Program-made: the position numbers and the translations under genes
NCBI RefSeq assembly: GCF_000687455.2
Contig: NZ_JGVW01000060.1
Coordinates: 1-64,000, forward strand
DNA from: Burkholderia sp. lig30
Lineage (GTDB): Bacteria; Pseudomonadota; Gammaproteobacteria; Burkholderiales; Burkholderiaceae
DNA length: 64,000 nucleotides
Direction of reading: 5' to 3'
Notes under the pieces: generated by a model
The model's database searches: none
Told to the model about the DNA's origin: nothing
Seen by the model: the letters and a program-made list of their open reading frames with translations, nothing else
Part shown: positions 591 to 36,010 of the stretch, piece by piece
Layout: each line of letters opens with the position of its first letter
Numbering within the stretch: the stretch's first letter is position 1

Positions 591-1625
591 TCACACCTCC
601 TCCAGCGGCTCGACCGTCACCGCGACCTTCAGCACCTGATCGGCCCCGCCGCCGCGAATCACGCCGCGCAGCGGCGTGACGTCCGCATAGTCGCGGCCGA
701 CCGACAGCATCACGTAGTCGTCGCCCGGCGCGCGGTCGTTGGTCGGGTCGAGCTGCAGCCAGCCGCCGTCCTCCGGCCACAGCGGGTCGTACACCTCGAC
801 CCACGCATGCGACGCGTCCGCGCCGATCAGGCGCGGCTGTCCGGGCGGCGGCTGGGTCAGCAGGTAGCCGCTCACATAGCGCGCGGCCAGCCCGAGCGAG
901 CGGATCGCGCCGATCATCACGTGCGCGAAATCCTGGCAGACGCCCTTGCGCAACGCGAGCGCATCGAGCGCGGTCGTCGTCACGTCGGTGCTGTCCGGCG
1001 CATACGCGAATTCCGCGTGGATGCGCCGCATCAGCTCCCACGCCGCCTGCACGAGCGGCCGGCCCGGCGTGAAGCTCGCCGACGCGTACGCGGCCAGCTC
1101 CGGATGACACGCGACGTGCGGCGACGCGAACACGAATTCGCTCGCCGCATCGTACGGCTGCCCCGCGCGATAGCAGAACCGGTCGCGCACCGCCTCCCAC
1201 GCGCTCGCATGCGCGGCATCCGGCTGCGCGATCGCGGGCGGCGGCGCACCGCGCTTGCCGGCCGACCACGCCGGCGCGGCGACCCGCACCACGCTGCGGC
1301 TGCGCACGAACAGCGCGTCGTGCGGCTGGTTCAGCGCGAACGACGCGCGCTCGTTGCCGAACGCATCGGTCTCGACGCCGACCGACTCCGGCTTCGGCTC
1401 GATGTCGAGCGCGAACGACAGCAGCTTTTGCCGCGGCGTCGACAGCGGCTTGAGCCGCGCCTGATGCTGCGCGGATTCGACCCGCGCCGCGTAGCGATAG
1501 TGGGTATCGTGCGTGACACGCAGCACACGGCCCGGCTCGGCCGCAGCGGTCGCAGTGGCCGCTTTCGGCTCGCGGCGGCGCTCGGCGGCGGGCTCGGCGC
1601 GCACCGCGGATTTCATCGTCACCAT
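591..1625 (-). CDS. Transglutaminase-like cysteine peptidase family protein
   Basis: A 344-residue protein with a low-complexity Ala/Arg-rich N-terminus (about 1-33), a bacterial transglutaminase N-terminal domain and a transglutaminase core. The catalytic triad is intact: Cys230 in KGVCQDFAH, His273 in ASHAWVEV and Asp293 in QLDPTND. It is the last gene of a six-gene minus-strand operon and overlaps the 3' end of the ATP-grasp/alpha-E fusion gene by 7 bp, so translation is probably coupled. An alternative ATG lies nine bases downstream. The family catalyses amide-bond cleavage or transfer. In such operons it has been predicted to process peptides made by the ATP-grasp partner, but the substrate is unknown. 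Confidence 0.9.
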   Translation of the reverse strand: MVTMKSAVRAEPAAERRREPKAATATAAAEPGRVLRVTHDTHYRYAARVESAQHQARLKPLSTPRQKLLSFALDIEPKPESVGVETDAFGNERASFALNQPHDALFVRSRSVVRVAAPAWSAGKRGAPPPAIAQPDAAHASAWEAVRDRFCYRAGQPYDAASEFVFASPHVACHPELAAYASASFTPGRPLVQAAWELMRRIHAEFAYAPDSTDVTTTALDALALRKGVCQDFAHVMIGAIRSLGLAARYVSGYLLTQPPPGQPRLIGADASHAWVEVYDPLWPEDGGWLQLDPTNDRAPGDDYVMLSVGRDYADVTPLRGVIRGGGADQVLKVAVTVEPLEEV

Positions 1626-4267: not shown

Positions 4268-4430
4268 GATGTCGGTCGGTCATGAATGGGCGGCCACGGG
4301 CGTGCGCCGCCGCGCACGGGCGCGGCGGCGCAGGTTCTGCCGGCATCCTAGCATTCGCGCCGGTGCGTTTTCGTGTGTGGCCCGGCGACGGGTCGTCATG
4401 CGGTCTCCTCCGGTTCCGTCGCACGCCGCG

Positions 4431-7400
4431 TCAGGTGCGCCGCAGGTCGAGCGTAAACGGGAACTCGCGGCTCGGCGACGCCGCGGCGACGTCCATCCGC
4501 CCCGGCGTATGCCCCATCGCGACGAAGCGCGCGAGACGGCGGCTTTCGGCCTCGTAGGCGTTGACCGGGAACGTCGCGTAGTTGCGTCCGCCCGGGTGCG
4601 CGACGTGATACCGGCAGCCGCCGAGCGAGCGCTGCATCCACGTATCGACGATGTCGAAGGTCAGCGGCGCATGCACGCCGATCGTCGGATGCAGCGCAGA
4701 CGGCGGCCCCCACGCCTTGTAGCGCACACCCGCCACGTACTCGCCGGCGGTGCCGGTCGGCTGCAGCGGCAGCGCGCGGCCGTTCACGGTGACGACGTGG
4801 CGGTTGTCGTTCAGGCCGGTGACGCGCACTTCGAGGCGCTCCAGCGACGAATCGACATAGCGCACGGTGTGGCCGGCCGCGCCCTCCTCGCCCATCACGT
4901 GCCACGGCTCCAGCGCGCCGCGCAGCGACAGCTGCATGCCGCGCACCGCGATCTGTCCGAACAACGGGAAGCGGAACTCGAAGTGCGGCGCGAACCACGC
5001 GGCGTCGAATGCGAAGCCGGCCTCGCGCAGCTCGGTCAGCACGTCGTCGAAATCCATTTGCAGGAACGCCGGCAGCATGAAGCGATCGTGCAGCTCGGTG
5101 CCCCAGCGGGTCAGCGGCGTGGTGTATGGCGTCGTCCAGAAACGCGCGATCAGCGCGCGCAGCAGCAGTTGCTGCACGACGCTCATCCGCGCATGCGGCG
5201 GCATCTCGAACGCGCGCAGCTCGAGCAGGCCGAGGCGGCCGGTCGGCGAATCGGGCGAGTACAGCTTGTCGATGCAGAACTCGCTGCGGTGCGTATTGCC
5301 GCTCACGTCGATCAGGATGTTGCGCAGCACGCGATCGACGAGCCACGGCGGCATGTCCTGCCCGTACAGCAGCGTGTTGCGCTGGATCTCCTTGAACGCG
5401 ATGTCAAGTTCGTAGACCTGATCGTTGCGAGCTTCGTCGACGCGCGGCGCCTGGCTCGTCGGGCCGATGAACAGCCCCGAGAACAGGTACGACAGCGACG
5501 GATGGTTGTGCCAGTAGCCGATCAGGCTCGCGAGCAGGTCCGGGCGACGCAGGAACGGGCTGTCGGCCGGCGTCGCGCCGCCGAGCACGAAGTGGTTGCC
5601 GCCGCCCGTGCCGACGTGGCGGCCATCGACCATGAACTTCTCGCTGCACAGCCGCGAGTGGTACGCCGCGTCGTACAGAAACTCGGTATGGTGAACCAGT
5701 TCGCTGAAATGGCTGGCCGGGTGGATGTTGACCTCGATCACGCCCGGGTCCGGCGTCACCTGCAACAGCTTCAGGCGCGCGTCGCGCGGCGGCGGATAGC
5801 CTTCGAGCACGAGCGTCACGTCGAGCGTCTGCGCGGTCAGCTCGACCGCGCTCAACAGGTCGAGATAGTCCTCGAGCGCGGCGAGCGGCGGCATGAACAC
5901 GTAGAGGATGCCGTTGCGGACCTCGACGCAGAGCGCCGTGCGGGTGATCCACGCGGCCGACTCGAAGCGCTCCGGATAGCGCGGCGCGGGAGGCGCGGCG
6001 CGTCCGCCGTGTGCTCGCCCGTCGTCGCGCCACTGCATCACGGTGTTCGGCAGCGCTTCGCGCTGCACGCCGGCCAGATGGCGCGTCGCGTCGGCATGCG
6101 CCGCGTAGCGCGCGCGGAACATGTCGGCGCTCGGCAACGGCGCGAGCGGCGCGAACGGGTCGCGCTCGATCAGGTACGGGTAATCGCCGCGGCTCACCCA
6201 CGGCAGCGAATCGAGCGGCAGCCGGTAGCCCATCGGCGAATCGCCCGGCATCAGGTACATCCGCTCGTCGCGGAAGAACCACGGCCCGGTCTCCCAGCAG
6301 GGGCCGTCGAGGCCGGGCCCGGCGTCGGCGGGCTTGAGCGGCAGCACGTAGCCGACGACGCTGTCGAGCTTCTGCTCGAACACCTTGCGCAGCCGCGCGC
6401 GCTCCAGCTCGTCGTCGAGACGCGAGTCGAACGGATCGACGTTGACCGGCAGCTGGCGTTCGCGCCACAGGTAGTACCAGACGTCCTCATACCCCGGGCG
6501 GATGTGGTCGCGCGTCAGGTTCAGGCGCGCGGCGAGCGCGTCGATGAAGCGTTTCGCGTCGTCCGTCGTAAGCGACGACGGCGCGCGCTCGTCGGCGAAC
6601 CGCGCGGGATCCTGCCAGACCGGCTGCCCGTCCGCGCGCCAGTAGATCGACAGCGCCCAGCGCGGCAGTTGCTCGCCCGGATACCACTTGCCCTGCCCGA
6701 AGTGCAGGAAGCCGCCCTGGCCGTATTCCGCGCGCAGCCGCTGCACCAGTTCCGTCGCGTAGCCGCGCTTGGTCGGACCGAGCGCATCGGTGTTCCATTC
6801 GGCGCCGTCGCGGTCGTCGATCGACACGAAGGTCGGCTCGCCGCCCTGCGTGAGCCGCACATCGCCCGCCGTCAGCGCGCCGTCGACCGCGTCGCCGAGC
6901 GCGAGCACGGCGCCCCACTGCGCGTCGGTGTACGGCTTCGTCACGCGCGGCGATTCGTGGATGCGCGTCACCGTCATCTCGTGCTCGAACGCGACCTCGC
7001 ATTCGTCGACGAGCCCTTCGACCGGCGCGGCGCTGGTCGGCTGCGGCGTGCAGGCGAGCGGAATGTGCCCTTCGCCGGCCAGCAGCCCCGAAGTCGGATC
7101 GAAGCCGATCCACCCCGCGCCGGGCAGATACACCTCGCACCACGCATGCAGGTCGGTGAAATCGACCGACGTGCCGCTCGGGCCGTCGAGCGACTTCACG
7201 TCCGGCGTCAGCTGGATCAGGTAGCCCGACACGAAGCGCGCGGCGAGCCCCAGGTGCCGGCACAGCTGCACCAGCAGCCAGCCGCTGTCGCGGCACGAGC
7301 CGGACGCCAGCTCGAGTGTCTGCACGGGCGTCTGCACGCCCGGTTCCATCCGCACCAGGTAGCGGATGTCGTGCTGCAGTCGCTGGTTGAGCGCGACGAG

Positions 7401-7841
7401 GAAGTCGACGGTGCCGGACGGCGTGCGGTCGATCCCGTCCAGGTATGCGCGAAACGCGGGCGCATCGGTCGTCTGGGGGTCGCACGCGAGATACGGCGCG
7501 AGCTCGGTGAGCAGCGCGTCGTCGTAGCGGAACGGGAACCGTTCGGCGCTCTCCTCGAGGAAGAAGTCGAACGGGTTGTACACCGACATCTCGGCGACGA
7601 GATCGACCGTGACCTCGAAGTGGCGCGTGCGCTCCGGGAACACCAGCCGCGCCATGTAGTTCGCGAACGGATCCTGCTGCCAGTTGACGAAGTGCTGCGC
7701 GGGCTCGACGGTCATCGAGTACGAGACGATCGGCGTGCGGCAGTGCGGCGCGGGACGCAGACGCACGATCTGCGGCCCCAGGTTGATGAGGCGGTCGTAA
7801 CGGTAACGGGTGGTGTGATGCAGCGCGACGTGAATGGGCAT
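4431..7841 (-). CDS. Large transglutaminase-DUF2126 protein
   Basis: A 1136-residue protein starting MPIHVALHHTTRYRYDR, with a bacterial transglutaminase N-terminal domain, a transglutaminase core (triad Cys183 in SGSCRDSGW, His232 in LHAWCEV, Asp248 in GFDPTSG) and an 800-residue C-terminal DUF2126 region with no known activity. Its length is normal for the family. It lies inside the ATP-grasp/alpha-E/transglutaminase operon, 98 bp after the preceding transglutaminase gene and 163 bp before the fusion gene. No signal peptide or membrane segment is seen, so it should be cytoplasmic. The role is inferred from neighbours: modification or hydrolysis of peptides built by the ATP-grasp ligase. Confidence 0.92.
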   Translation of the reverse strand: MPIHVALHHTTRYRYDRLINLGPQIVRLRPAPHCRTPIVSYSMTVEPAQHFVNWQQDPFANYMARLVFPERTRHFEVTVDLVAEMSVYNPFDFFLEESAERFPFRYDDALLTELAPYLACDPQTTDAPAFRAYLDGIDRTPSGTVDFLVALNQRLQHDIRYLVRMEPGVQTPVQTLELASGSCRDSGWLLVQLCRHLGLAARFVSGYLIQLTPDVKSLDGPSGTSVDFTDLHAWCEVYLPGAGWIGFDPTSGLLAGEGHIPLACTPQPTSAAPVEGLVDECEVAFEHEMTVTRIHESPRVTKPYTDAQWGAVLALGDAVDGALTAGDVRLTQGGEPTFVSIDDRDGAEWNTDALGPTKRGYATELVQRLRAEYGQGGFLHFGQGKWYPGEQLPRWALSIYWRADGQPVWQDPARFADERAPSSLTTDDAKRFIDALAARLNLTRDHIRPGYEDVWYYLWRERQLPVNVDPFDSRLDDELERARLRKVFEQKLDSVVGYVLPLKPADAGPGLDGPCWETGPWFFRDERMYLMPGDSPMGYRLPLDSLPWVSRGDYPYLIERDPFAPLAPLPSADMFRARYAAHADATRHLAGVQREALPNTVMQWRDDGRAHGGRAAPPAPRYPERFESAAWITRTALCVEVRNGILYVFMPPLAALEDYLDLLSAVELTAQTLDVTLVLEGYPPPRDARLKLLQVTPDPGVIEVNIHPASHFSELVHHTEFLYDAAYHSRLCSEKFMVDGRHVGTGGGNHFVLGGATPADSPFLRRPDLLASLIGYWHNHPSLSYLFSGLFIGPTSQAPRVDEARNDQVYELDIAFKEIQRNTLLYGQDMPPWLVDRVLRNILIDVSGNTHRSEFCIDKLYSPDSPTGRLGLLELRAFEMPPHARMSVVQQLLLRALIARFWTTPYTTPLTRWGTELHDRFMLPAFLQMDFDDVLTELREAGFAFDAAWFAPHFEFRFPLFGQIAVRGMQLSLRGALEPWHVMGEEGAAGHTVRYVDSSLERLEVRVTGLNDNRHVVTVNGRALPLQPTGTAGEYVAGVRYKAWGPPSALHPTIGVHAPLTFDIVDTWMQRSLGGCRYHVAHPGGRNYATFPVNAYEAESRRLARFVAMGHTPGRMDVAAASPSREFPFTLDLRRT

Positions 7842-7939
7842 GGCAAGGCTGCTCGGTTCGGGTTGGATCGGGGCGGCCGTGTCGCGGCGGCTTCGTCAGC
7901 CGCGGCACGGCATCACGGGTTGGGTGGCGACGCGCGGGT

Positions 7940-8905
7940 TCAGACCAGTTCGGGCGACTGCACGACGCTGATCTCCACGCCGAGCGGCTGCGCGCCGGAA
8001 CCGGTCACCGGCTGCGTGTCGCGGTAATCGAGTCCTGCCGCGATCCGCACGTAGCGCTCGTCCGGGCAGCGGTTCATGAACGGGTCGAAACCGACCCAGC
8101 CGAGCCCGTCGACATGGGCCTCCGCCCACGCATGGCCGGCGGACGGCTGCATCAGCGCGAGCGCCTGCTGCCGCGCGCCCAGCGACGGTTGCGGCATGCC
8201 CGGCGCAGCGCGCGCCGCGCCGAGCGCCTGCCGCATGCCGTTGCCGGCCTGCAGCGCGGCTTCGGCCTCCTCCGCGCCGCCCGCGTGCTGCATCGCCTCG
8301 GCCATGCGCTGCATCGCGCCGTCGGCCAGCAGATAGCCGGACACGTAGCGCGCCGGAATTTTCAGCACCCGCGCGGCGGCGATGAACGCATGCGCGTGAT
8401 CGCGGCTCGTGCCTTCGCCGTTCTGCAGCGCGGTCTCCGCATCGAGCGGCGCGTCGGCGCCGTTCGGCGCATACGCGATGCGGCCGTGGACTTCCGTCAT
8501 CAGCCAGTGCAGCGCATCGAGGCCGCGCTGCTCGACCGGCAGCGCGTCGGCGAGCGCGCGGATCGCGTCGCCGGCCTGCGTGAGCGGTGTCTCGCGCTCG
8601 AAGATCCACGGCGGCGCATAGCCGTCCGTCGTGCCGAGGATGCCCGCGCGATCCTGCGTCTCGACGACGCCCGCCGCGACGATCACGATCTCCGGCTTGA
8701 CCGCGCGCTCGTGCCGCACGAGGTCGATCCGGTTGCCGAGGCCGTCGGCATAGGACAGCGTCGGCTCGATGCCGTCGATCGTCACCTGCCATGCGCGCAC
8801 GGTCTGCCCCGGCCCCGATTGCGGCCGCAGGCGCAGGCGCTGCAGCACGTGCGTGACATGATCGTCGAACCGATAACGCGAGATGTGTCGGATGGCGAGG
8901 CGCAT
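7940..8905 (-). CDS. Transglutaminase-fold protein with Ser in place of the catalytic Cys
   Basis: A 321-residue transglutaminase-like protein. The N-terminal domain (1 to about 100) and core match the other two paralogues in the operon, and His258 (AGHAWAEAH) and Asp274 (GFDPFMN) are present. At the nucleophile position the sequence reads GEGTSRDHAHAF, so residue 167 is Ser (codon AGC) where the paralogues have GVCQDFAH and GSCRDSGW. About 60 extra residues rich in Ala, Met and Gln (194-255) separate YVSGYLL from the His motif. It may be a serine-dependent variant, a non-catalytic binding subunit, or nearly inactive. It starts 8 bp after the alpha-E gene stop, within the operon. Confidence 0.9.
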   Translation of the reverse strand: MRLAIRHISRYRFDDHVTHVLQRLRLRPQSGPGQTVRAWQVTIDGIEPTLSYADGLGNRIDLVRHERAVKPEIVIVAAGVVETQDRAGILGTTDGYAPPWIFERETPLTQAGDAIRALADALPVEQRGLDALHWLMTEVHGRIAYAPNGADAPLDAETALQNGEGTSRDHAHAFIAAARVLKIPARYVSGYLLADGAMQRMAEAMQHAGGAEEAEAALQAGNGMRQALGAARAAPGMPQPSLGARQQALALMQPSAGHAWAEAHVDGLGWVGFDPFMNRCPDERYVRIAAGLDYRDTQPVTGSGAQPLGVEISVVQSPELV

Positions 8906-8913
8906 GGCAGGTC

Positions 8914-9855
8914 TCAGTCGAAGTTGTAGGCCTGGGCGACTTCCTGCCCCAGGCTGTTGTTGCGGCCGATGAAGTCGGTCAGGAATTCGTGCAGCCCGCT
9001 CTTGAAGATCCGCTCGACGCTGTTGTCGGACAGCATCTGCAGGATCGTCGCGGCGGTCTCGTGACACGGATGCGTGACGCCGTAATCCTTCGCGAGCATG
9101 TCGAGGCTCGACACGACGCGCCCGTAGCAATACCGCAGCGAGCGCGGCATCCGCCCGTTGAGGATCAGGTAGTCGGCGATGTTGAGCGGCTTGTACTGCA
9201 CGTCGTACATCCAGCGGTACGAGCGGTGCGCGGCGACGCAGCGCAGGATCGTCTCCCATTGGTAGTTGTCGAGGATCGTGCCGACGTGCGACACCGACGG
9301 CAGCAGCAGGTGATACTTCACGTCGACGATGCGCGCGGTGTTGTCCGCGCGCTCGATGAACGCGCCGATCTGCGCGAAATTGAAGATCTCGTTGCGCAGC
9401 ATCGTGCTGTAGAAGCTGCCGAGGATCAGTGCCGTCTCGCGCTTCACCTGATCGAGAAACGCCGGCAGCTCGCTCGCCGGCACCGGCTGCGCGAGGCCGC
9501 GCCCGATCGACAGCCACGCGCCGTTGACGCTCTCCCACGCCTCGCGCGTGAGCGCGGTGCGCACCATCCGCGCGTTCGAGCGCGCGTCCTCGATGCACGA
9601 CAGCACGCTCGACGGGTTGTCGCGATCGCGCAGCAGGTAGTCGGTGACGGTATCGGCCGCGTACGCGTCGTATTTCCGGCGATAGCCTTCGTCCGCGCCC
9701 GAGCTGACGAGCACCGACGACCATTCGGCCGGCGCGTCGGTCGTGCGCGTCAACGCCATCCGCAGGCCGGCGTCGACGATGCGCGCGGTGTTCTCCGCGC
9801 GTTCGATATAGCGGTACATCCAGTAGAGACCGCTCGCAGTGCGTCCAAGAAGCAT
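8914..9855 (-). CDS. Alpha-E domain protein (DUF403)
   Basis: A 313-residue all-helical protein beginning MLLGRTASGLYWMYRYIERAEN, the diagnostic opening of the alpha-E family. It is a stand-alone homologue of the C-terminal half of the fusion gene at 1619-4267. It sits between the intact ATP-grasp gene and a transglutaminase gene, an order found repeatedly in bacteria. Comparative genomics has led to the proposal that alpha-E proteins assist ATP-grasp amidoligases, but no biochemical function is established. The second copy, fused to a degenerate ATP-grasp, suggests two parallel ligase complexes or a hetero-complex. Confidence 0.92.
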   Translation of the reverse strand: MLLGRTASGLYWMYRYIERAENTARIVDAGLRMALTRTTDAPAEWSSVLVSSGADEGYRRKYDAYAADTVTDYLLRDRDNPSSVLSCIEDARSNARMVRTALTREAWESVNGAWLSIGRGLAQPVPASELPAFLDQVKRETALILGSFYSTMLRNEIFNFAQIGAFIERADNTARIVDVKYHLLLPSVSHVGTILDNYQWETILRCVAAHRSYRWMYDVQYKPLNIADYLILNGRMPRSLRYCYGRVVSSLDMLAKDYGVTHPCHETAATILQMLSDNSVERIFKSGLHEFLTDFIGRNNSLGQEVAQAYNFD

Positions 9856-11338: not shown

Positions 11339-11847
11339 CGATCATTATCTCCATCGTTTTCGCGGCACCCTGTGTGCCGGACCGGCGTCAATACTGATGA
11401 GCAAGGAGCGTGCCTTGCGATTCCTCCATTCTTCGGCCGGCCCGGCACGCTCGCGCGGCATCGCGCACCACGGCGGTGCGGCGCGCCCCGCGCGCGCGGC
11501 CCGGCATGCGCCGAGTCAGCGCACGGCCCGTCCGCGCGTCGCATGGCGGCGCGACGGCAGCGCGCGGATGGCGCGACGACCGGTATTTCGTATCGACCTT
11601 AGTCCGCGTTCGTGTCACGAATATGCAACCGACGGGAAGTAAGCGAGGGGAAGGCGGAAACGGCGGATGGCGCGTTACGGCGTGTTACGGCGCGCTCGGA
11701 CGCTGGGCGTACAGCCTGCGGCGCAGGAGGGAGCGGGATAAGTCGGGAAAGCGCGGCGCCGTGCCGCGTCGCGGCGAATGACGCCGGCCGCGACGCCGCG
11801 CGGCCGGCCTGATGCGCCGGATCCGCCGGCGCCGGCACCGCGCGCCG
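11339..11847. other. Gene-free gap upstream of the ATP-grasp operon
   Basis: About 500 bp of very GC-rich sequence between the start of the ATP-grasp operon and the 3' end of the carbamoyl-amino-acid hydrolase gene. The open frames here have no family resemblance and unconvincing composition. It should contain the leftward promoter of the operon, but I could not pick out a convincing -35/-10 pair. GC-rich inverted repeats near 11800-11850 could help end transcription of the hydrolase gene. Confidence 0.5.
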
Positions 11848-25336: not shown

Positions 25337-25897
25337 CTAGCGCCCGAAACGCATCACGGTGCTGGTATTGGCCAGCACATGATCCTTTATCGCCGCATGC
25401 AACGCATCGCGTGTCAACCCGGCCGCGAGCGCGTCAGGCGCAAGGTCCAGCGCGTAGATCTGCACGACATAGTGATGGGCGATCTCGCCAACCGGTGGAC
25501 ACGGCCCACGATAAGCTGCCTGCCCGATGACGTTGAGACCCACGCGCGCGCCGGCAGGCGGCTCGCCGCCTGCCGCAAGCGACGTCGTCGACGCGGCAAT
25601 GCCGTACATCACCCAGTGCACGACACCGAAGCCTTTTGCGCCGTCCGGATCGAAGATTGTAATCACAAAGCTGCGCGTGCCAGCGGGCGCATTGCGCCAT
25701 TGCAATGCCGGCGACACATTGCCGCCACCACAGTTGTTCTGGCTCCCGGCATGGCGCATGGAGAGCGTGCCGCCGTCGGGCAGCCCCGGTGAAGTCAGTT
25801 CGAACGCGTCTGCGGCGTACGCGGTCGCGCCGCGCAGCAACAGGACGCACAGGCTCGCGCCAAGCGCATGCCGGATCGCATGTGCGTTGATTTTCAT
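25337..25897 (-). CDS. YbhB/YbcL family (Raf kinase inhibitor-like) secreted protein
   Basis: A 186-residue protein with a signal peptide (MKINAHAIRHALGASLCVLL, cleavage near AYAAD) and the phosphatidylethanolamine-binding-protein fold of the YbhB family: FELTSPGLPDGG, GGNVSPALQW, FDPDGAKGFGVVHWV and AYRGPCPP with GEIAHHYVVQIYAL. AGGAG precedes the start at good spacing. Function in bacteria is unknown; the export signal suggests a periplasmic ligand-binding role. It appears monocistronic. Confidence 0.9.
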   Translation of the reverse strand: MKINAHAIRHALGASLCVLLLRGATAYAADAFELTSPGLPDGGTLSMRHAGSQNNCGGGNVSPALQWRNAPAGTRSFVITIFDPDGAKGFGVVHWVMYGIAASTTSLAAGGEPPAGARVGLNVIGQAAYRGPCPPVGEIAHHYVVQIYALDLAPDALAAGLTRDALHAAIKDHVLANTSTVMRFGR

Positions 25898-26059
25898 CGT
25901 ACGGCTCCTTTCTCGCCGCATGGGTCGCGCGACGCCGACGCTGGAACTCGCCCATTTTGGAACCGTGGGCGAAACGCCCGACGCTGCCGAACGGACGACT
26001 TGCGCCAGCATGACCATCGGCGGATAATGCATCGCAATTGCGATGCTTCGAGAGACATC

Positions 26060-26338
26060 ATGAAATCCGCCACCTTTCCATCCATCCGGGTCGAGCCGGA
26101 ACTGCGCGACGCCGCCGAAAGCGTCCTCGGCGAAGGAGAAACGCTGTCGGGTTTCGTCGAGCAATCGATCCGCGAGGGTATCGAGCGCCGTCGTAACCGA
26201 AGCGAATTCATTGCCCGCGGCATCGCATCGCGCGAAGCGGCCCGACACACCGGCGATTATGTGCCTGCGTCCGACGTGCTGGAAAGGCTGGAACGGCGGC
26301 TCGACGCCCTTCGCGATACGAGACGGAAACCTCGATGA
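26060..26338 (+). CDS. Antitoxin of a ParE-type toxin-antitoxin pair
   Basis: A 92-residue protein resembling the YlcI/YnfO-like antitoxin family. The N-terminal IRVEPELRDAAESVL and LSGFVEQSIREGIERR give a ribbon-helix-helix-type DNA-binding unit. The charged C-terminal half would wrap the toxin. Its stop overlaps the toxin start in an ATGA quartet. The start was chosen over a long upstream open frame because the family homology begins at MKSATFPS. Autorepression of the pair is expected. Confidence 0.85.
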   Translation: MKSATFPSIRVEPELRDAAESVLGEGETLSGFVEQSIREGIERRRNRSEFIARGIASREAARHTGDYVPASDVLERLERRLDALRDTRRKPR

Positions 26339-26643
26339 CGTATGAGGTTCGGTTCACGCGTGCGGCGTCGGATGATCTGGAGCGTCTTTATGGCTTCATC
26401 GTCGATCGCGACGACGCCGACGTCGAACTCGCCGCCCGCGCGCTTGCGGCCGTCGCCGCCGGGATCGCCACGCTGGAATCGTCGCCGTTCACTTGCCGCA
26501 AAGCGCATCCGTCGATGCCGTTTCTACGGGAACTGATCATTCCGTTCGGCGCGTCGGGATATGTCGCGCTGTTCGAGATCGACGACGATCGGACGGTGAC
26601 GATCCTTGCCGTGCGCCATCAGCGAGAAAGCGATTACCACTGA
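26335..26643 (+). CDS. RelE/ParE family toxin
   Basis: A 102-residue toxin with VRFTRAASDDLERLYGFI at the N-terminus (ParE-type helical hairpin) and the C-terminal strand VTILAVRHQRESDYH. ParE toxins poison DNA gyrase and RelE toxins cleave mRNA; the hairpin favours ParE. Overlap with the upstream antitoxin by four bases indicates a typical co-translated addiction module. The length is normal and all core motifs are intact. Confidence 0.88.
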   Translation: MTYEVRFTRAASDDLERLYGFIVDRDDADVELAARALAAVAAGIATLESSPFTCRKAHPSMPFLRELIIPFGASGYVALFEIDDDRTVTILAVRHQRESDYH

Positions 26644-26762: not shown

Positions 26763-27128
26763 TCAGCCCGCGAGCTTCTTGAACGCCTCGATCACCGCGT
26801 CGCCCTTGAACGGCTTGACGATCCAGCCCTTCACGCCGGCCGCCTTGCCGCGCTCCTTCATCGCCGGACTGCTTTCCGTCGTCAGCATCACGACGTTGAC
26901 CGCCGTGTTGCCCAGCTCGCTGCGGATCTTCTCGACCATCGTGAGGCCGTCCATGATCGGCATGTTGACGTCGCTGATCACGAGGCGCACGCCCGGCGTC
27001 GCCTTGAGCTTCGCAAGCCCGTCCTTGCCGTCGTTCGCCGTCGCGACGTCGAGCCCGTGGTTGCGCAGGAAGCCTGCGACTTCGTCGCGCACCGTGCTGG
27101 AATCGTCCACCACCAGAATCTTTGCCAT
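26763..27128 (-). CDS. Single-domain CheY-like response regulator
   Basis: A 121-residue receiver domain with all phosphorylation residues: Asp8/Asp9 in VVDDSST, phospho-acceptor Asp53 in ISDVNMPIMD, Thr83 in MLTTES and Lys105 in IVKPFKG. It has no output domain, so it should act by binding a target as CheY does. It is the last gene of the five-gene chemosensory-like operon, 20 bp after the REC-CheX gene. It is the natural phosphate acceptor for the CheA-like kinase and substrate for the two CheX-type phosphatases. Confidence 0.95.
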   Translation of the reverse strand: MAKILVVDDSSTVRDEVAGFLRNHGLDVATANDGKDGLAKLKATPGVRLVISDVNMPIMDGLTMVEKIRSELGNTAVNVVMLTTESSPAMKERGKAAGVKGWIVKPFKGDAVIEAFKKLAG

Positions 27129-27148
27129 GTCTTTTCGTCCTTCCTTTT

Positions 27149-28108
27149 TTAAAACAATTCCAGTTCACCCGAGTCGACCATCGGCCCCACGTCCTGCTCC
27201 GACTCGGTGAAATCCTCGGGCGACCAGCTCAGGCTGAACACGAATCGCTGGTCGACGCAGACCGACTTGCCCGACTCCGGATCGGTCACCCAGTACTTGA
27301 AGCAGAGTTGCGGGTACTCGCCGCCGAACGAGATCGTCTTCTGCTTGTGATTGACGATCAGCGGCACCTGCACCGGATGACGCGCGAGCGCCTCGGCATC
27401 GCCGAGATAGCGGTTCTTGAACGCACCCCAGACCAGGTTCGTCAACTCGCCGAGCATGCCGTTCAGCTCGCGGAAATCGGGCGGCGCGCCGTCCGACTCC
27501 ATCTCGCCGAGCAGGTCGAGCATCGGCTGCTCGCTCGTCTGCAGCAGCATGTAGCCGCGGCACCATGCGCTTTCTAGCGCGATCAGGCTGAACACCTCGC
27601 CGAAGATGATCTGGTCGCGGACGATGCAGGGCGTCTCGCAGCGCACCGTCATGCCGGGGAAAAGCGCGTCGAGCCGCGCCTCGGTGATTTCCGCGATGCC
27701 GCGCACGAGCGCGTTCGGGTAGTCGAGGCTGAAGATGTATTCGTCGATCATGCGACGCAGCGGCGTCATGTCGTCCGCAACGTAGGTCGCACAGGCGGCG
27801 CGGGCCAGCGCATCGGGCAGGCCTTCGCTCGACGGCTCCGAGCCGCGCCGCAGGATGATCGGCAGCTCCGGTCGCAGCGCGTCGATCTGCGTCGCGACGA
27901 TCGCGCTTTCCTCCACCGAGCCGCCGTAATCCTCGGCGAGCAGGATCGCGCCGAGATCGATGTTCGAGCGCAGCACATTCAACAACCGGTTGCGGCGCAC
28001 TTTCAGGCCGATCAGGTTGTGGTCGTCGCAAAAGCGCTTGATCGCCTCGACGTGCACCGGACTGTCGTCGAGCACCAGCACCTTGCTGACGGGTTTGCCT
28101 TCGGTCAT
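27149..28108 (-). CDS. Degenerate receiver domain fused to CheX-like phosphatase domain
   Basis: A 319-residue protein. Residues 1 to about 125 are receiver-like (KVLVLDDSPVHVEAIKRF), but the usual Lys region reads TYVADDMTPL with no Lys, and IILRRGS replaces the Thr/Ser switch, so it is probably a pseudo-receiver. From about 150 a CheC/CheX-type domain carries ExxN (Glu221 and Asn224 in GELTNLVW), the motif that dephosphorylates CheY-P. It ends DSGELELF, nearly the same tail as the next CheX protein. The start was chosen at MTEGKPVSKV; it follows the CheX stop by 29 bp. Confidence 0.88.
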   Translation of the reverse strand: MTEGKPVSKVLVLDDSPVHVEAIKRFCDDHNLIGLKVRRNRLLNVLRSNIDLGAILLAEDYGGSVEESAIVATQIDALRPELPIILRRGSEPSSEGLPDALARAACATYVADDMTPLRRMIDEYIFSLDYPNALVRGIAEITEARLDALFPGMTVRCETPCIVRDQIIFGEVFSLIALESAWCRGYMLLQTSEQPMLDLLGEMESDGAPPDFRELNGMLGELTNLVWGAFKNRYLGDAEALARHPVQVPLIVNHKQKTISFGGEYPQLCFKYWVTDPESGKSVCVDQRFVFSLSWSPEDFTESEQDVGPMVDSGELELF

Positions 28109-28137
28109 TTCCGGTTCTTCCTCGCGTTCGGATTCGG

Positions 28138-28671
28138 TCAAAACAGTTCGAGTTCGCCGCCCGATTCCACGGCTGCGGTGTCCTGCGCGTAGAAGTCGAC
28201 CGGCGCGTTCGCGCAGATGCACAGGGTCGCGCCAAGGCGCACGGCGTCGCCGACCGTCACGTCGAATGCGGCGAGATGATGCGGCGCGAGCGCGTGCATC
28301 GCGTCGATGCTCGCGCTGCCCAGCAAGTACGGCGTCGACATGCCCAGGTCGGGGAAATGCTCGATCAGCGCCTGGTTCATCGCGCCGCAGCAGAGGTTCG
28401 CGACCTCCATGAACGCATCCTGAATCGACCGCTGCGCGGTGGCGCCGAAGTAGGCGCGCGTCGCGTCGTCGTCGCGGAACCGCAATGCGAGCAGCAGCCG
28501 GAAATGCAGCGACGAAATCGTCAGCACCACGGCATGGGCGTCACGCGCGGCCGGCCGCGCATCGCCGGCGGCCGGCACGATCGCGCACGTGCCGCCGTCC
28601 AGCACGAGCCGCGTGCGGGCCGCGTTGAAGAAGATGCGCTCGACGCTGTCCTTCGCCTGCGCGCTGATCAC
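28138..28671 (-). CDS. CheX-like chemotaxis phosphatase
   Basis: A 177-residue protein starting at GTG, with AAGGAG seven bases upstream and a four-base GTGA overlap with the MCP-like gene. The DxxxExxN phosphatase signature is present (Asp85, Glu89, Asn92 in IQDAFMEVANLC), so it should hydrolyse CheY-phosphate. It ends ESGGELELF, matching the C-terminus of the REC-CheX protein encoded next. CheX is rare in beta-proteobacterial chemotaxis loci, which normally rely on CheZ. Confidence 0.88.
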   Translation of the reverse strand: MISAQAKDSVERIFFNAARTRLVLDGGTCAIVPAAGDARPAARDAHAVVLTISSLHFRLLLALRFRDDDATRAYFGATAQRSIQDAFMEVANLCCGAMNQALIEHFPDLGMSTPYLLGSASIDAMHALAPHHLAAFDVTVGDAVRLGATLCICANAPVDFYAQDTAAVESGGELELF

Positions 28672-29423
28672 GCCTGCACTCCTTGCAGCCGCTCGCGCAG
28701 CTGGCCGCTCAGTTGCCCGGTCAGCATCTCGACGGTGCCGAGCGCCGCGGTGATCATCTTGCCGCCCGCCTGAATGTCCTGGAACGTCGCGGCCGTCACC
28801 AGGTCGTTCCGGTTCAGGCTGTCGCGGTAGCTGTTCGACAGTTGCTGCGAGCGCGCCGCGAGGGTTCGCACTTCGCTCGCCACGATCGAGAATCCGCGCC
28901 CGGCCGCGCCGGCGCGCGCCGCCTCGATCGACGCGTTCAGCGACACGATCGACACGTGTGCGACGATCGAAGACAGCTCGTGGTTCTTCGAGCGCATGTC
29001 CTGGTTCTGCGTCGTCAGCGAGATCATCTGCTCGTGCCAGCGCTCGAACGTGCCGGACAGGCCGCGCAGCCGCCCTGCCTCCTGCTCGATCCGCTCGGCC
29101 ATCGCGAGCAGCGCCGCCTGCTCCGACTGCGCCGCCTGCAGCGCGTCGCGCCGGGCGTCCGCCTCGGCCGACTGGCGGGCGAGCGCGTCGGCGAGCTCGC
29201 TTTCCTTCTGCGTCCATGCTTGCGCGTCGGAGGCGTGCGCCGCCTGCGCGCCGCTCGCCTGCGCCTCGGCGTGCGCGAGCGCTTCGCGCAGCGCCGCCAT
29301 TTCATTTGCCGCCTGCGCAGCCAGCCGCTTGCCGCGCGCGTGGTACGCGAGCGCCGCCCCCAGCCATGCCAGCAGGCCGCCGGCCAGCACGGCCGCGATC
29401 GTCCATCCCGTCTGCACGCTCAC
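28668..29423 (-). CDS. Short methyl-accepting chemotaxis-like transducer
   Basis: A 251-residue protein with one N-terminal transmembrane helix (about 8-27), a long Ala/Gln/Glu-rich coiled coil (about 30-115) and an MCP signalling tip (about 163-190: NASIEAARAGAAGRGFSIVA then SEVRTLAARSQ). It lacks a periplasmic sensor, HAMP domain and a C-terminal CheR/CheB tether, so it would sense from the cytoplasm or act as a scaffold. It overlaps the kinase gene by 4 bp upstream and CheX by 4 bp downstream. No CheW is encoded to link it to a kinase. Confidence 0.9.
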   Translation of the reverse strand: MSVQTGWTIAAVLAGGLLAWLGAALAYHARGKRLAAQAANEMAALREALAHAEAQASGAQAAHASDAQAWTQKESELADALARQSAEADARRDALQAAQSEQAALLAMAERIEQEAGRLRGLSGTFERWHEQMISLTTQNQDMRSKNHELSSIVAHVSIVSLNASIEAARAGAAGRGFSIVASEVRTLAARSQQLSNSYRDSLNRNDLVTAATFQDIQAGGKMITAALGTVEMLTGQLSGQLRERLQGVQA

Positions 29424-31825
29424 TCCGTCACGCCGGCTGCTGCCGTGCCCATACGCGTGTCGCCGTCGCCGCGCGTCGCGTCGAAGCCCACGCTGTCCAC
29501 CGCGAATGCGTCAGGCAGCGACACGACCGTCTGGAATGCGCGATACGATGCGCCGCGCCGGTCGTCCGTGAAGCGCAGCGCGATGTCGCCGCCTTCGCGA
29601 TTGAGGAAATTACGCACCGCGTCCATGCCGACGCCACGGCCCGACACCTCCGTGACCGCGCTGGCCGTCGAGAAGCCCGGACGGAAGATCAGCTCGGCCA
29701 CGGCCTCGTCGCTCATCGTCCGCTCGGTGTCTGCATCGATCCAGCCGCGCTCGCGCGCAATGCCGCGAATCCGGTCGAGCGCGAGCCCGCGGCCGTCGTC
29801 GGCGAGCGTGATCTGCAGCATGCCGCCGTCGACGCCCGCTTCGATGTCGATCGTGCCGGCCACCGCCTTGCCGTTAGCCTTGCGTTCGTCGGCAGCCTCG
29901 ATGCCGTGATCGATCGAGTTACGCAGCAGGTGCACGAACACGTTCTTCAACGTGCCGCCGATCTCGCTGCGCACCCGGTAGCCGTTGTCGTCGATCCGCA
30001 CCTCGGGCACTTCCTTGCCCAGCTCGGTTGCCAGCGACGGCAGCGATTCGAGCACGCCGGCCAGCGCCTCGTCGAGGCTTTCCGTGCCGAGCAGGCTCAG
30101 CATGTTGCGCACCGAGTCGCGCGCCGCACGCCAGTCCGCGGCGTTCGCGGGGTCGATCCCGTCGAGTACGCGCAGGCTCTCGCTGATCTGCGCACGCTCG
30201 ACCATCAGGTAGTCTTCGGCCGGGCTGCCCGCCACTGCGCCGCCGCGGCCGAGCGTGACTTCGTTGATCGTCGCATAGCTGTCCACTGCCTCGCGCACCC
30301 GCACGAGATCGTCCATCAGCGCGTTGCGGTCCCATTCGCGCGCGGCATCGGCGTTCTCGTGGCGCAGCGCCTCGTAGGCCTGCTCCGCTTCGTGCACGAT
30401 GTTCGTCAGGTGCTGCAGGCTGTACGTGCGGGCATTGCCCTTGATCGTATGCATGTTGCGGAACAGCGCCGCGACCGCCGTGCTGTCCGCGCAGTCGTTC
30501 TGGCGGATGATGTGCTCGTTCTCGTTGATGAAGCCCTTCGCGCTGTCCACGAAGTGGTGGAACTTGTCCTGGCTGATCGACAGGATCTCGCCGATCATCT
30601 CCAGGCGGCGCTGCTGCTCGCCCGCCTGCGCGGTCAGCTCGCGCAGCTCGGTGACGTCACGCACGCACAGCATCAGGCGCACCACGGTGTCGGTATCGTC
30701 GGTGATCGCCGACCAGCTCAGGTCGAGCCACTTCTCGCGCCCGTCCGGCATGCGCTTCGCGACTTCGTTGACCAGCAGGTGCGCGTTGAACTCGAAGTTC
30801 ATGCTGTCCTCGCCAAGGCACGCGAACATCGCCGCCTCGACCTGCGAGCGCGCATCCGAGCCGAGGCTCGAATCGTCGAACACGAGCTCCATCAGCGGAC
30901 GGGCGGCGATGTTCTTCGTTTCGAAGATGTTCTCCAGATACGCCGAGTATTCCGCGTGCACGACGCCGCCGTTCACCACGGTCAGGATACCCTGCTGCAT
31001 GTTCTGCAGCATCGCCTGGATGTCCGCGGTCTTCTGCTTCAGCTGCGCGGCGTTTTCCTGGATCTTCTCGATCATGCCGTTGAACGCGACGATCGAGTGG
31101 CCGATCTCGTCCATCCGGCCGACCGGCACGCGCCGCGTGAAGTCCTGGCTCGACGCGATCTCGCTCATCATCGTCTGCATCCGGCTCAGCGGGCGCGTGA
31201 TCTGGCGATACAGCACGAAGCCGAGCGCGGTCAGCAGCACGATCACCGTGCCGGCGACGCCCGCGATCGCGGTCGCCGTCGTCGACAGCATGCCGTTCAG
31301 CGCCTGGATCGCGTCGTCCTTCTGGCGGTTCTTCTCGACGCGCAGCGCTTCGACGATCCCTTCCAGTTCGTCGCGATACTGCGCGACGTTCGCGAACAGG
31401 TAGGCCTGGGCCATCTCGGTCTTGCCGTCGGCTTTCATCTTCGCGGTGTCGCCGATCGCCGAGAAATAGTTCGTGACGCTCTCTTTCGCCTGCGCGACGA
31501 GACCTTCCTGCGCATGGCTCGCGGCCGACCGGGCCTGCACGTCGAGCGCCGCGCGCAGTGCCGCCTGCTTCGCCTTCAGCTCGTCCTGCGCCTGGGCGGC
31601 CATGTTGCTGTCGGGCGCGTAGATCAGCGTCATTGTCGCGATCTGGATGTCCTTGACGTCGGACACGAGATCCGCGGATGCGAGTGCGCTGGGCACGATG
31701 CCCTGCGTAACCTGCTTAACTTCGGACGCGCTCTTGCGCGTCTGGTAGACGGCGTAGACACCGATCGCCGACAAGGCGAGAAATGTCAGGACGACAAGCA
31801 ACGTGATGCGATGGCGAATGGTCAT
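29420..31825 (-). CDS. Membrane-bound HAMP-PAS-Hpt-HATPase histidine kinase (CheA-like)
   Basis: An 801-residue protein. Order: TM1 (about 7-27), a helical periplasmic four-helix-bundle MCP-type sensor (30-185), TM2 (186-207), HAMP (207-260), PAS (about 268-395), a CheA-type Hpt domain with phospho-His459 in MHTIKGNARTYS, then an HATPase domain with N-box Asn635 (HLLRNSIDHG), G1 DDGRG (677) and G2 GRGVGMDAV (729). No C-terminal CheW-like P5 domain follows. It thus merges receptor and CheA kinase in one chain. First gene of the operon; a sigma-28-like -10 lies about 75 bp upstream. Confidence 0.92.
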   Translation of the reverse strand: MTIRHRITLLVVLTFLALSAIGVYAVYQTRKSASEVKQVTQGIVPSALASADLVSDVKDIQIATMTLIYAPDSNMAAQAQDELKAKQAALRAALDVQARSAASHAQEGLVAQAKESVTNYFSAIGDTAKMKADGKTEMAQAYLFANVAQYRDELEGIVEALRVEKNRQKDDAIQALNGMLSTTATAIAGVAGTVIVLLTALGFVLYRQITRPLSRMQTMMSEIASSQDFTRRVPVGRMDEIGHSIVAFNGMIEKIQENAAQLKQKTADIQAMLQNMQQGILTVVNGGVVHAEYSAYLENIFETKNIAARPLMELVFDDSSLGSDARSQVEAAMFACLGEDSMNFEFNAHLLVNEVAKRMPDGREKWLDLSWSAITDDTDTVVRLMLCVRDVTELRELTAQAGEQQRRLEMIGEILSISQDKFHHFVDSAKGFINENEHIIRQNDCADSTAVAALFRNMHTIKGNARTYSLQHLTNIVHEAEQAYEALRHENADAAREWDRNALMDDLVRVREAVDSYATINEVTLGRGGAVAGSPAEDYLMVERAQISESLRVLDGIDPANAADWRAARDSVRNMLSLLGTESLDEALAGVLESLPSLATELGKEVPEVRIDDNGYRVRSEIGGTLKNVFVHLLRNSIDHGIEAADERKANGKAVAGTIDIEAGVDGGMLQITLADDGRGLALDRIRGIARERGWIDADTERTMSDEAVAELIFRPGFSTASAVTEVSGRGVGMDAVRNFLNREGGDIALRFTDDRRGASYRAFQTVVSLPDAFAVDSVGFDATRGDGDTRMGTAAAGVTE

Positions 31826-31899
31826 GTGTACTGCTCCCCGTAACGATCCGGATTCAACCGCGTGCGCGTTCTATTGAATATGAGTTGGCGCGCGGCGAA

Positions 31900-31925
31900 T
31901 TATCGGCGACGGGTTATGACCGTTA
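31900..31925 (-). promoter_or_regulatory. Sigma-28 (FliA)-like promoter for the chemosensory operon
   Basis: Reading leftward, the exact flagellar -10 GCCGATAA occupies 31907-31900. TAACGGTC lies 10 bases upstream (31925-31918; 5 of 8 matches to TAAAGTTT, one base short of ideal spacing). It leaves a leader of roughly 65-70 nt before the kinase start. The -10 is perfect and the -35 weak. Confidence 0.5.
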
Positions 31926-31987
31926 TATGACTATGGCGGAATCGATTTTTCCAAAAAAAGAGACAGTTTATTCGGGCACGAAAACCC

Positions 31988-32014
31988 TAAAGTTTTCGGA
32001 AACTCTGCCGTTAA
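31988..32014 (+). promoter_or_regulatory. Near-consensus sigma-28 (FliA) promoter, rightward
   Basis: TAAAGTTT, eleven bases, then GCCGTTAA: 15 of 16 positions match the enterobacterial FliA consensus TAAAGTTT-N11-GCCGATAA at exact spacing. It faces away from the chemosensory operon and toward the TonB receptor gene 580 bp away. The nearest convincing transcript end is a T7 run at 32088, so the product may be a small RNA. Confidence 0.6.
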
Positions 32015-32020
32015 CTTTCG

Positions 32021-32094
32021 TCCACCATTCTCGCTGACCCTTGCGACGCAGCGTGAATCGCGTGCCGCGGCCGGGTGTGATGCGCGCTTTTTTT
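32021..32094 (+). ncRNA. Candidate FliA-dependent small RNA
   Basis: Starts about seven bases after the sigma-28-like -10. GCGTGC (32060) can pair with GCGCGC (32082-32087, one G-U pair), directly followed by seven T (32088-32094), a plausible intrinsic terminator. No open reading frame fits. The RNA of about 74 nt is purely predicted from promoter plus terminator. Confidence 0.3.
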
Positions 32095-32363
32095 CATTCG
32101 CGCATGCATCGGACGATATGTACCACGCCGTAAAACGTTTGCAAATAATTAACGCTTGCATCGCATTCAATTCGAAATGATTTTGCGAATGGCGGCGTGA
32201 ATGCCGCCAACTTTCATCCGGCGACCGGCTGGCCGCCGGATCGCACGCGCCCGCCCCACCGGACAGCGCGCACGTCGGCACAACCGGCAATTCGCTCCTC
32301 CGCACCCTGTCACGCCGCCCTGCCCGATCGCACCCCACCACCACAACCGCACGGGCCATCGCC

Positions 32364-34878: not shown

Positions 34879-34927
34879 TATCCGGCGGCGCGATTCCCGG
34901 CGATGCCCGGCGTGCGTGCCGCGCGAC

Positions 34928-35003
34928 GCTCACGCCTCACGCCTCACGCCTCACGCCTCACGCCTCACGCCTCACGCTTCAGGCTTCAGGCTTCAGGCTT
35001 CAC
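34928..35003. repeat. Heptamer tandem repeat reaching into the DUF2891 stop codon
   Basis: After a partial unit come six GCCTCAC units, three GCTTCAG and one GCTTCAC. The last unit contains the stop codon of the leftward DUF2891 gene (35000-35002). Gain or loss of units inside the array would not change that protein. The variant units resemble those of the upstream array at 32364. Confidence 0.92.
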
Positions 35004-36010
35004 GCCTCCAGCGCAAGCGTCGCGAACGTCGCGAGCCAGTGCTCGCCCATGTAGTCGCCCGCGACGTGCGCGAGCGCACTGTCGAGATGGCGGTCGGCCG
35101 CATCGCGCAGCAATGCGCGCCGGATGTCGTTCTCCGGCAGCGCGCCCGCGAGCGCGCGCTGGCACCATGCGCGGCTCAGGTTCAACCCGTCGAGGTGCGC
35201 GATCTTGCCGTCGCTGCGGTCGCTCACCGTGACCAGCGCGAACAGCGTCGCCGGCTCGCCGCGCGCGAGATCGGGCAGGAACCGCGCGAACCAGCCGTCG
35301 AACGCGTCCGGCGGCAGCACGCGCCGCATCAGTTCCGCCTCCATCAGCGCGGGCGACAGGAACTCGTCGCCGGACGGCTCCCAGGCCTGGCACGCGGCGT
35401 CGTTCAGGTGCCAGCGCGCCGCCGTCTCGACGATCAGCGCGGCGAGCCGCTCGCGCCCCGTCTGGCGCGCGAAATCGAGTGCGAGCGCCAGCGCGAACGC
35501 GGTATTGAAATGCGTGCCGACGCGCACCGGATAGGTCGCTTTCGGCAGGAATCCCTCGAAGCGCTCGACGATCGCGCCGGTAAGCGGCGCCAGCACCTCG
35601 GCCCAGCGGGCGGCCTGCGGCAGCGGCAGGCGTTCGAGCTGCGCGGCAAGCGCCAGCAGCCACGCCCAGCCATACGGCCGCTCGAAGCCGAGGTTGTGCG
35701 GCAGATCCAGATATGCGCACTCGCCTGCGACGTTCGCGCCGGTGAAGTGTGCGTCGGCGACGGCGACGATGCGCGCGGCTTCGGGCAAATCGGGAAAGCG
35801 CTCGAGCAGATGCAGCACGAGCCAGTAGCCATGCACGCACGAATGCCAGTCGTAGCTGCCGTAGAAGATCGGGTGCAGCGCGCGCGGCCCCTGCACGTCC
35901 CGCGGGCCGGCGAGCGCATGGGCGAGCTTGTTCGGATACTCGCGCGTCAGGTGCGCGAGCGCGAGCGTCGCGAATCTCGACGCAATCGCGGGCGTGAGTC
36001 GAGCGGTCAT
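35000..36010 (-). CDS. DUF2891 family protein
   Basis: A 336-residue protein of the DUF2891 family (hypothetical, probably an alpha/alpha-toroid fold). Visible blocks include REYPNKLAHALAG, HPIFYGSYDWHSCVHGYWLV, LPHNLGFERPYGWAWLLALA, YPVRVGTHFNTAFALALAL and DFLSPALMEAELM-like EFLSPALMEAELM. The His and Trp residues in SYDWHSCVHG could line an active site. The start at MTARLTPA fits family N-termini; an ATG two codons earlier is possible. It is convergent with the TonB receptor gene, with a heptamer array between. No function is established. Confidence 0.88.
   Translation of the reverse strand: MTARLTPAIASRFATLALAHLTREYPNKLAHALAGPRDVQGPRALHPIFYGSYDWHSCVHGYWLVLHLLERFPDLPEAARIVAVADAHFTGANVAGECAYLDLPHNLGFERPYGWAWLLALAAQLERLPLPQAARWAEVLAPLTGAIVERFEGFLPKATYPVRVGTHFNTAFALALALDFARQTGRERLAALIVETAARWHLNDAACQAWEPSGDEFLSPALMEAELMRRVLPPDAFDGWFARFLPDLARGEPATLFALVTVSDRSDGKIAHLDGLNLSRAWCQRALAGALPENDIRRALLRDAADRHLDSALAHVAGDYMGEHWLATFATLALEA

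Follow-up and report, generated by a model that had tools for sequence, protein, structure and literature searches.

A conserved Burkholderia operon of chemotaxis-type genes with a CheA-like receptor-kinase lacking P5 and a common tail on two CheX proteins

What kind of signalling system can be built around a CheA-type kinase core that lacks P5, the domain through which CheA is coupled to receptors, and that carries a sensor of its own? This question is raised by an operon of five genes in a 64,000-nucleotide stretch of DNA from Burkholderia sp. lig30 (the window), which is part of a contig (C60) of a 5.5 Mb genome in 139 contigs. A canonical chemosensory system encodes CheW together with CheA and a methyl-accepting chemotaxis protein (MCP). 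The operon does not, and we found CheW neither on its contig nor in the flanks of the 45 loci described below. We give a probability of about 0.5 to the reading that the operon encodes an insulated, self-contained phosphorelay, which would run from a receptor-CheA fusion to a dedicated CheY and would be reset by tail-tethered CheX proteins.

The genes KIN, MCP-short, CX1, CX2 and CHY lie head to tail on the minus strand (26763-31825; Table 1). KIN overlaps MCP-short by 4 bases, as MCP-short does CX1, and the two remaining gaps measure 29 bases (CX1/CX2) and 20 bases (CX2/CHY). The best protein matches reach 99%, and 97% to a protein named as B. multivorans. A sequence-only reading of the window had described five tightly spaced genes of this domain make-up, among them a kinase without the CheW-like P5 domain and an MCP-like protein without sensor or HAMP. 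Gene coordinates, Pfam scans and structure models bear out this description.

Table 1. Genes of the operon and their main parts, with positions in the window
Feature	Position	Strand	Remarks
KIN receptor-kinase	29420..31825	-	801 aa: 4HB_MCP sensor, HAMP, PAS, P1/Hpt, P3-like, P4/HATPase; without P5
KIN residues 1-161, periplasmic four-helix-bundle sensor and membrane helix	31343..31825	-	Pfam 4HB_MCP_1, 38 bits; helices in model
KIN residues 205-391, HAMP (205-257) and PAS (268-391)	30653..31213	-	Pfam; model
KIN residues 419-524, P1 (Hpt) helical domain	30254..30571	-	His459 invariant in 17/17
KIN residues 540-777, CheA P3-like stretch and P4	29495..30208	-	24 residues after; no SH3-like P5
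MCP-short	28668..29423	-	251 aa: one N-terminal membrane helix, long coiled coil, signalling hairpin
FERWH patch, MCP-short residues 126-130	29034..29048	-	E127, W129, H130 invariant in 22/22
Hairpin tip, MCP-short residues 153-189	28857..28967	-	LNASIEAARAGxxGRGF largely kept
TFQDIQAGGKM patch, MCP-short residues 213-223	28755..28787	-	returning arm, opposite FERWH patch
CX1, CheX-fold protein	28138..28671	-	177 aa; GTG start overlaps MCP-short stop; ExxN E89/N92
CX1 C-terminal tail GELELF	28141..28158	-	disordered in model
CX2	27149..28108	-	319 aa; degenerate receiver-like N-terminal half, CheX domain 172-271; E221/N224
CX2 C-terminal tail GELELF	27152..27169	-	sequence
CHY, single-domain CheY	26763..27128	-	121 aa; D8, D9, D53, T83, K105 invariant in 18/18

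The kinase contains a recognizable CheA core. CheA has the architecture P1-P2-P3-P4-P5, and KIN is homologous to its P1 and P4, with the catalytic residues kept. We built a profile from 17 KIN homologs, and its positions 540-750 match residues 283-495 of the solved CheA 6s1k (E 5e-49), a match whose start lies inside P3. The profile also matches the CheA P1; the CheA matches end with P4, with nothing beyond. Pfam places Hpt at 447-505 and HATPase_c at 626-760, and detects no CheW, HisKA or H-kinase_dim domain in the protein. KIN thus lacks the HisKA-type dimerization/phospho-acceptor domain of a classical sensor histidine kinase, and its invariant histidine is in the Hpt/P1 domain. H459, N636 and the G-box and ATP-site residues that were checked are invariant in 17/17 homologs.

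KIN differs from CheA in having no P5, no P2 that we could find, a reduced P3, and its own transmembrane 4HB-HAMP-PAS input. The 4HB_MCP and HAMP matches of this input exceed the Pfam cut-off; the PAS match is below it, and the model shows an alpha/beta, PAS-like fold there. The AlphaFold2 model has a mean predicted local distance difference test score (pLDDT) of 80 and a predicted template modelling score of 0.39, so the domains can be trusted, but not their mutual arrangement. In the model, P4 runs to residue 777 and is followed by 24 residues, the last 20 of which have pLDDT <50. Foldseek aligns the model to a CheA P3P4 target with a template modelling score of 0.6, and P4 alone with about 0.8. 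A CheA chain comprising P4 and P5 (2ch4_A, length 320) aligned over 194 columns, as would be expected if KIN has no P5. A hidden P5 is thus ruled out by Pfam, by the end of the profile match at P4, by the model and by Foldseek. Lacking P5 and having its own sensor, KIN cannot be joined to receptors as a canonical CheA is. In a survey of 13,673 CheA sequences, 100% had a CheW domain, and the CheA dimerization domain always occurred with kinase and CheW domains, according to excerpts of that paper (PMC10782961). KIN therefore falls outside CheA as that survey delimits it, by the CheW domain, yet its sequence suggests that it should work like a CheA core.

In two Burkholderia genomes (G476:C235 and G509:C2), the KIN match is broken in two, with the break falling between P1 and P4 (profile ranges 1-542/538-778 and 1-531/532-785), which reflects either a frameshift or a natural split.

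The arrangement is widely conserved. One scan of genome contigs gave 45 loci, 37 of which hold four or five of the genes: KIN-MCP-CX1-CX2-CHY in 24 loci, KIN-CX2-CHY-MCP-CX1 in five, and KIN-MCP-CX1-CHY, with no second CheX, in eight. One further locus (L042) has KIN-MCP-CX1 with a broken CHY. In five loci KIN stands alone, two of which (L029 and L037) end at the contig end, and one locus (L045) is not a member but an ordinary CheA-type locus. MCP and CX1 occur together in 38 loci, nine of which have no CX2. The loci span Burkholderia, Trinickia, Paraburkholderia, Caballeronia, Oxalicibacterium, Rhodoferax, Acidovorax, Azohydromonas, Azonexus and several metagenome-assembled genomes (MAGs). 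The sequence-only reading had proposed conservation of gene order across Burkholderiales as a check, and the synteny that we found reaches well beyond Burkholderia.

In whole genomes, scored by their best few candidates and with the operon's own genome included each time, KIN occurs in 60 of 65 genomes of the genus, in 8 of 200 in a draw from the order, in 2 of 229 from the class and in 5 of 398 from the phylum. The order draw also indicates how closely KIN and MCP-short are associated. With at most 13 candidates scored per genome, MCP-short (>230 bits) was present in 7/8 KIN-positive and 0/192 KIN-negative genomes, the next match having 84 bits; the eighth KIN-positive genome, without MCP-short, is in 680 contigs. 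The ratio of nonsynonymous to synonymous substitution rates (dN/dS), calculated against a single relative (L014), is 0.21 for KIN, 0.40 for MCP, 0.34 for CX1, 0.36 for CX2 and 0.15 for CHY. Chance or an annotation artefact is ruled out as the origin of the operon by the synteny, the prevalence in the genus and these ratios.

A single member was found outside the order (G206). It has the same PAS-P1-P4 core, MCP-short and a tailed CX1, with a different N-terminal sensor, and the locus stops short of where the remaining genes would lie. Its kinase (L052, 790-3051) has a His-rich start and matches the profile only from position 253. Judging by these sequences, the input part of KIN seems to be exchangeable.

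Among plasmid records, the block occurs on replicons of 2.4-3.5 Mb in four named Burkholderia records. It is also present in two Caballeronia records and in one Ideonella record; the annotations of the Ideonella genes read Hpt domain-containing protein, methyl-accepting chemotaxis protein and hypothetical protein. In Ideonella dechloratans (L070, 10035-11333), an annotated integrase gene lies 375 bases past the CX1 homolog and is followed by a diversity-generating retroelement gene. In the Xylophilus MAG of L042, the CHY frame is interrupted at about 11400-11700, and what follows looks by eye like integrase sequence. A Burkholderiales MAG (L039) contains two very long frames (2-3517 and 3477-9638) that match KIN (572 and 578 bits). 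We found no partner genes for them, and the two may be larger multi-sensor relatives.

The earlier reading had also stated that CheW, CheR and CheB are missing from the operon. We searched the flanks of the 45 loci (8 kb where the contig allows) using phmmer, and found no CheW and no CheR. P5-type domains appear in these flanks only at L042, where a CheA that has CheW and receiver domains lies 6.8 kb upstream of KIN, and at the non-member L045. The CheB matches come from receivers, those of CHY and of frames with a receiver in L013, L036 and L042; strong ones occur in L045. Apart from L042 and L045, the presence of these genes next to the operon is thus ruled out for the flanks searched, and the earlier statement holds. 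Nor did we detect a conserved neighbour outside the block that could point to the output: among 22 diverse loci of the 45, the most widely shared family, an ABC-type ATPase, occurs in four. Frames matching the five queries were dropped from this count, which therefore does not register flanking MCPs or receivers.

MCP-short retains a clear signalling hairpin (MCPsignal, 58 bits in Pfam; solved MCPs at E 2e-19), including the tip half LNAxIEAARAGxxGRGFxxVAxEVRxLA. No sensor or HAMP matches it in Pfam, and only a membrane helix and a coiled coil precede the hairpin. It differs from other MCPs in its length, its single membrane helix, a short returning arm, and two family-specific patches, FERWH and TFQDxQA. 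It further lacks the canonical QTN of the tip, which none of the 22 homologs has but which the main MCP of the same genome carries. From FERWH to TFQDIQA, the 22 homologs align over 94 columns without a gap, with 29 invariant positions. Because the two patches lie at nearly equal distances from the tip on the two arms, they should face each other.

Both CheX proteins carry the ExxN motif and end in GELELF. For CX1, the CheX fold was shown by a VIA-align comparison of its model; the CheX domain of CX2 is apparent from sequence. A profile-profile comparison of CX1 with CX2 gave no clear link (21.5%), and the assignment of CX1 rests on fold. Database names for CX1 homologs are often "hypothetical protein" and sometimes "CheX". 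E89/N92 are invariant in 14 homologs of CX1, and E221/N224 in 16 of CX2. The N-terminal half of CX2 has no Pfam match and weak receiver matches, and its acceptor-like site, placed by eye, is E59 in 15/16 sequences. CheX is known from T. maritima and B. burgdorferi; here, by contrast, most loci have two CheX proteins, one with a receiver-like half. Both end in the tail.

The common tail had escaped the sequence-only reading. CX2 ends in GEL[DE][LF]F in 31/31 sequences and CX1 in GE[LIM]E[LFM]F in 35/39 (the window counted in both); the other four, L033, L034, L038 and L041, depart at one position. Among the best 120 CX1 homologs (of 981), 117 have the tail. In CX1, the last six positions are 98-100% identical, whereas the ten before them, a variable linker, are 34-87% identical, and residues 169-176 have pLDDT <50 in the model. 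A relaxed DNA pattern for the tail that includes the stop codon has two matches in the genome, exactly at the CX1 and CX2 genes; the reversed pattern, used as a control, has none in the whole genome. This sequence pattern looks like a short docking motif. Nine loci without CX2 keep the CX1 tail or a one-position variant (L038), so its partner is likely to be KIN, MCP-short or CHY. CheZ, a CheY phosphatase, also has a C-terminal peptide, which binds CheY. A pentapeptide, a CheZ-like peptide and a beta-clamp motif were considered as further identities for GELELF.

The same genome has another row of genes (G000:C18, L054) comprising a receiver protein, a protein that matches CheX weakly and looks by eye like CheC, and a GGDEF-like protein. 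The frames occupy 985-1641 on the minus strand, with 1625-2140 and 47-1234. This row may be another signalling operon with a phosphatase, of a different kind.

Conservation is highest in CHY, whose mean column identity is 82% versus 44-64% for the other four proteins (the sequence sets differ). Its nearest solved structures are 4h60 and 4hnr (94 bits), the next CheY having 70 bits. Going by the row order of a table in excerpts of PMC3774744, these are two structures of V. cholerae CheY4. The excerpts report that a pull-down showed no binding of CheY4 to FliM, that CheY4 has a Trp at the beta-5 switch position, that it is expected to be a poor CheZ binder and lies in a cluster without cheZ, and that a phosphate-sink role was suggested for it (PMC3774744). 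CHY has the same beta-5 switch Trp in 18/18 sequences and a similar adjoining stretch, TTExSPxxKxxGKAxGxxGWxVKPF being common to both. The CheY4 cluster (cluster III / F7) also holds cheA3, cheW2, cheW3, cheB3, cheR3 and cheD, by the same excerpts (PMC3774744), none of which is present in our operon. Other matches to CHY in the genome (E 1e-10) are two single CheYs, with 41% and 34% identity, and a hybrid CheA, whose receiver has 38%. The 41% CheY adjoins CheB in the main che cluster and is of the GYVVKPF type, unlike CHY. It is thus probable that CHY is insulated against the main motor CheY and against CheZ, which would explain why the operon has phosphatases of its own.

The residues for a complete His-Asp relay are invariant across the KIN and CHY alignments, and we propose the following scheme. 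The periplasmic four-helix domain of KIN would act through HAMP and PAS on the CheA-type core of the same chain. P4 would phosphorylate His459 of P1, and the phosphoryl group would pass to Asp53 of CHY. CX1, joined by CX2 where it is present, would dephosphorylate CHY, and GELELF would be the peptide by which the phosphatases dock on a partner in the module, either CHY, the hairpin or KIN. MCP-short would be a membrane-anchored antiparallel hairpin that offers a docking or regulatory platform. The target of phosphorylated CHY would probably be something other than the FliM motor switch.

A more far-reaching version of the scheme strikes us as doubtful. It would make the operon a distinct chemosensory class, in which covalent fusion replaces coupling by P5 and CheW. 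The hairpin would be the platform on which two CheX proteins, one with a Glu-for-Asp pseudo-receiver, dock by their GELELF tails, setting the lifetime of a CheY kept apart from its flagellar counterpart and from CheZ.

Several observations weigh against a self-contained relay. The P3-like helices of KIN are short in the model (544-555 and 562-578, thus 12 and 17 residues), compared with about 26-28 residues in model CheAs in the excerpts of PMC10782961. One locus (L024) consists of KIN-CX2-CHY without MCP and CX1, and three KIN homologs (L028, L039 and L044) have at least 3 kb downstream and no partner gene. Other points bear on the hairpin and on the motor. MCP-short keeps counterparts, by spacing, of receptor residues R394, E402 and R404, which in the core unit of E. 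coli touch CheW, according to excerpts of PMC6954272. The counterparts are R176 (R in 20 homologs, K in two), E184 (E in 18, G in four) and R186 (22/22). In L030, L031 and L033, which have a common neighbourhood among themselves, the block has ordinary MCP genes in its flanks. CheW is encoded elsewhere in the genome in 35/35 KIN-positive genomes tested (26 of the 45 loci plus nine further genomes), none of them lacking it. Of these 35 genomes, 34 also have FliM, and the Azonexus MAG of L041 is the exception. In the order draw, FliM is present in 8/8 KIN-positive genomes versus 135/200 overall, which has a chance probability of 0.04 if genomes are independent. Flagellum dependence is a weak trend only. 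With CheW in all of these genomes and FliM in nearly all, there may be links to the motor or to the main array.

One alternative is that MCP-short uses its conserved tip to join the housekeeping CheW/CheA lattice, by insertion or by docking, so that the operon would modulate or read the main chemotaxis system and the whole would depend on CheW. The retained contact residues suggest that the hairpin could dock on housekeeping CheW, and the 146-150 residues between membrane and tip in the aligned Burkholderiaceae sequences could reach the baseplate. The flanking MCP genes and the presence of CheW in every genome tested also fit, although CheW is common among chemotactic bacteria and its presence hence carries little weight. 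On the other hand, QTN is absent from all 22 tips, the membrane-to-tip length varies from 143 to 165 residues across relatives with a clear membrane helix, 3/22 aligned sequences have no clear membrane helix, and the operon's sole kinase has no P5. We consider this alternative unlikely. As for the earlier proposal of a self-contained relay bypassing CheW, in which the MCP-like protein would be the scaffold, it is partly supported by the P5-less kinase, its own sensor, the synteny, the flanks without CheW or CheR and the invariant relay residues. A bypass of CheW by the whole system is not established, given the retained contact residues and the universal presence of CheW in the genomes tested.

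A motor-directed accessory system appears to us similarly improbable. Here, phosphorylated CHY would bind FliM or another flagellar part, or would serve as a phosphate sink on the main pathway, adding a further input to swimming. All parts of the operon are of chemotaxis type, the FliM counts point in this direction, and a sink has been proposed for CheY4 (excerpts of PMC3774744). However, CHY resembles the CheY that failed to pull down FliM there, shares its Trp at the beta-5 switch position, and differs in type from the CheY beside CheB in the main che cluster.

That KIN is an ordinary membrane sensor kinase with Hpt-type chemistry, accompanied by MCP-short and CheX as decayed, functionless hitch-hikers, might be imagined from the missing sensor and HAMP and short returning arm of MCP-short and from the patchy occurrence of CX2, but is very improbable in view of dN/dS values of 0.15-0.40 for the five genes (against one relative), the gap-free hairpin with its invariant positions, and linkage that is kept across families.

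We found no account of the operon in the full-text literature searched, which leaves most subscription journals outside its coverage. A conserved P5-less CheA core that has its own sensor and usually lies beside a sensorless receptor hairpin indicates that chemotaxis parts can be re-wired, and its prevalence in the genus adds to the operon's relevance. The operon makes testable what an MCP hairpin does without a signal from its own sensor. GELELF, which is found on two CheX proteins and in this genome at those two genes only, poses a clean docking-motif problem.

Upstream of KIN (31823-32200, minus strand), we noticed the blocks GCAAACGTTTTAC, GTTAACGGC, ACTTTAG and GTCATA..CGATAATTCG, which 12 Burkholderia sequences share, some of them with a few mismatches. 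These blocks are possible promoter and regulator sites, and we take GCAAACGTTTTAC to resemble a LacI/PurR-type box. A candidate sigma-28 promoter upstream of KIN reads GCCGATAA in the window and CCCGATAA in most relatives; no conserved -35 half was found.

The scanned neighbours on both sides of the operon are unrelated to the chemotaxis block. One flank has a small frame, a ParE-type toxin gene, a PEBP-family gene, an enoyl-CoA hydratase and an alanine racemase, and the other a TonB-dependent receptor. The ParE-family gene and the small frame, which has no Pfam match, lie on the plus strand (25868-26640), convergent with the operon, and are likely a toxin-antitoxin pair. Downstream of the TonB-dependent receptor, at about 34900-35030, the translations of open reading frames repeat HASRLTP units, which probably reflects a short tandem DNA repeat.

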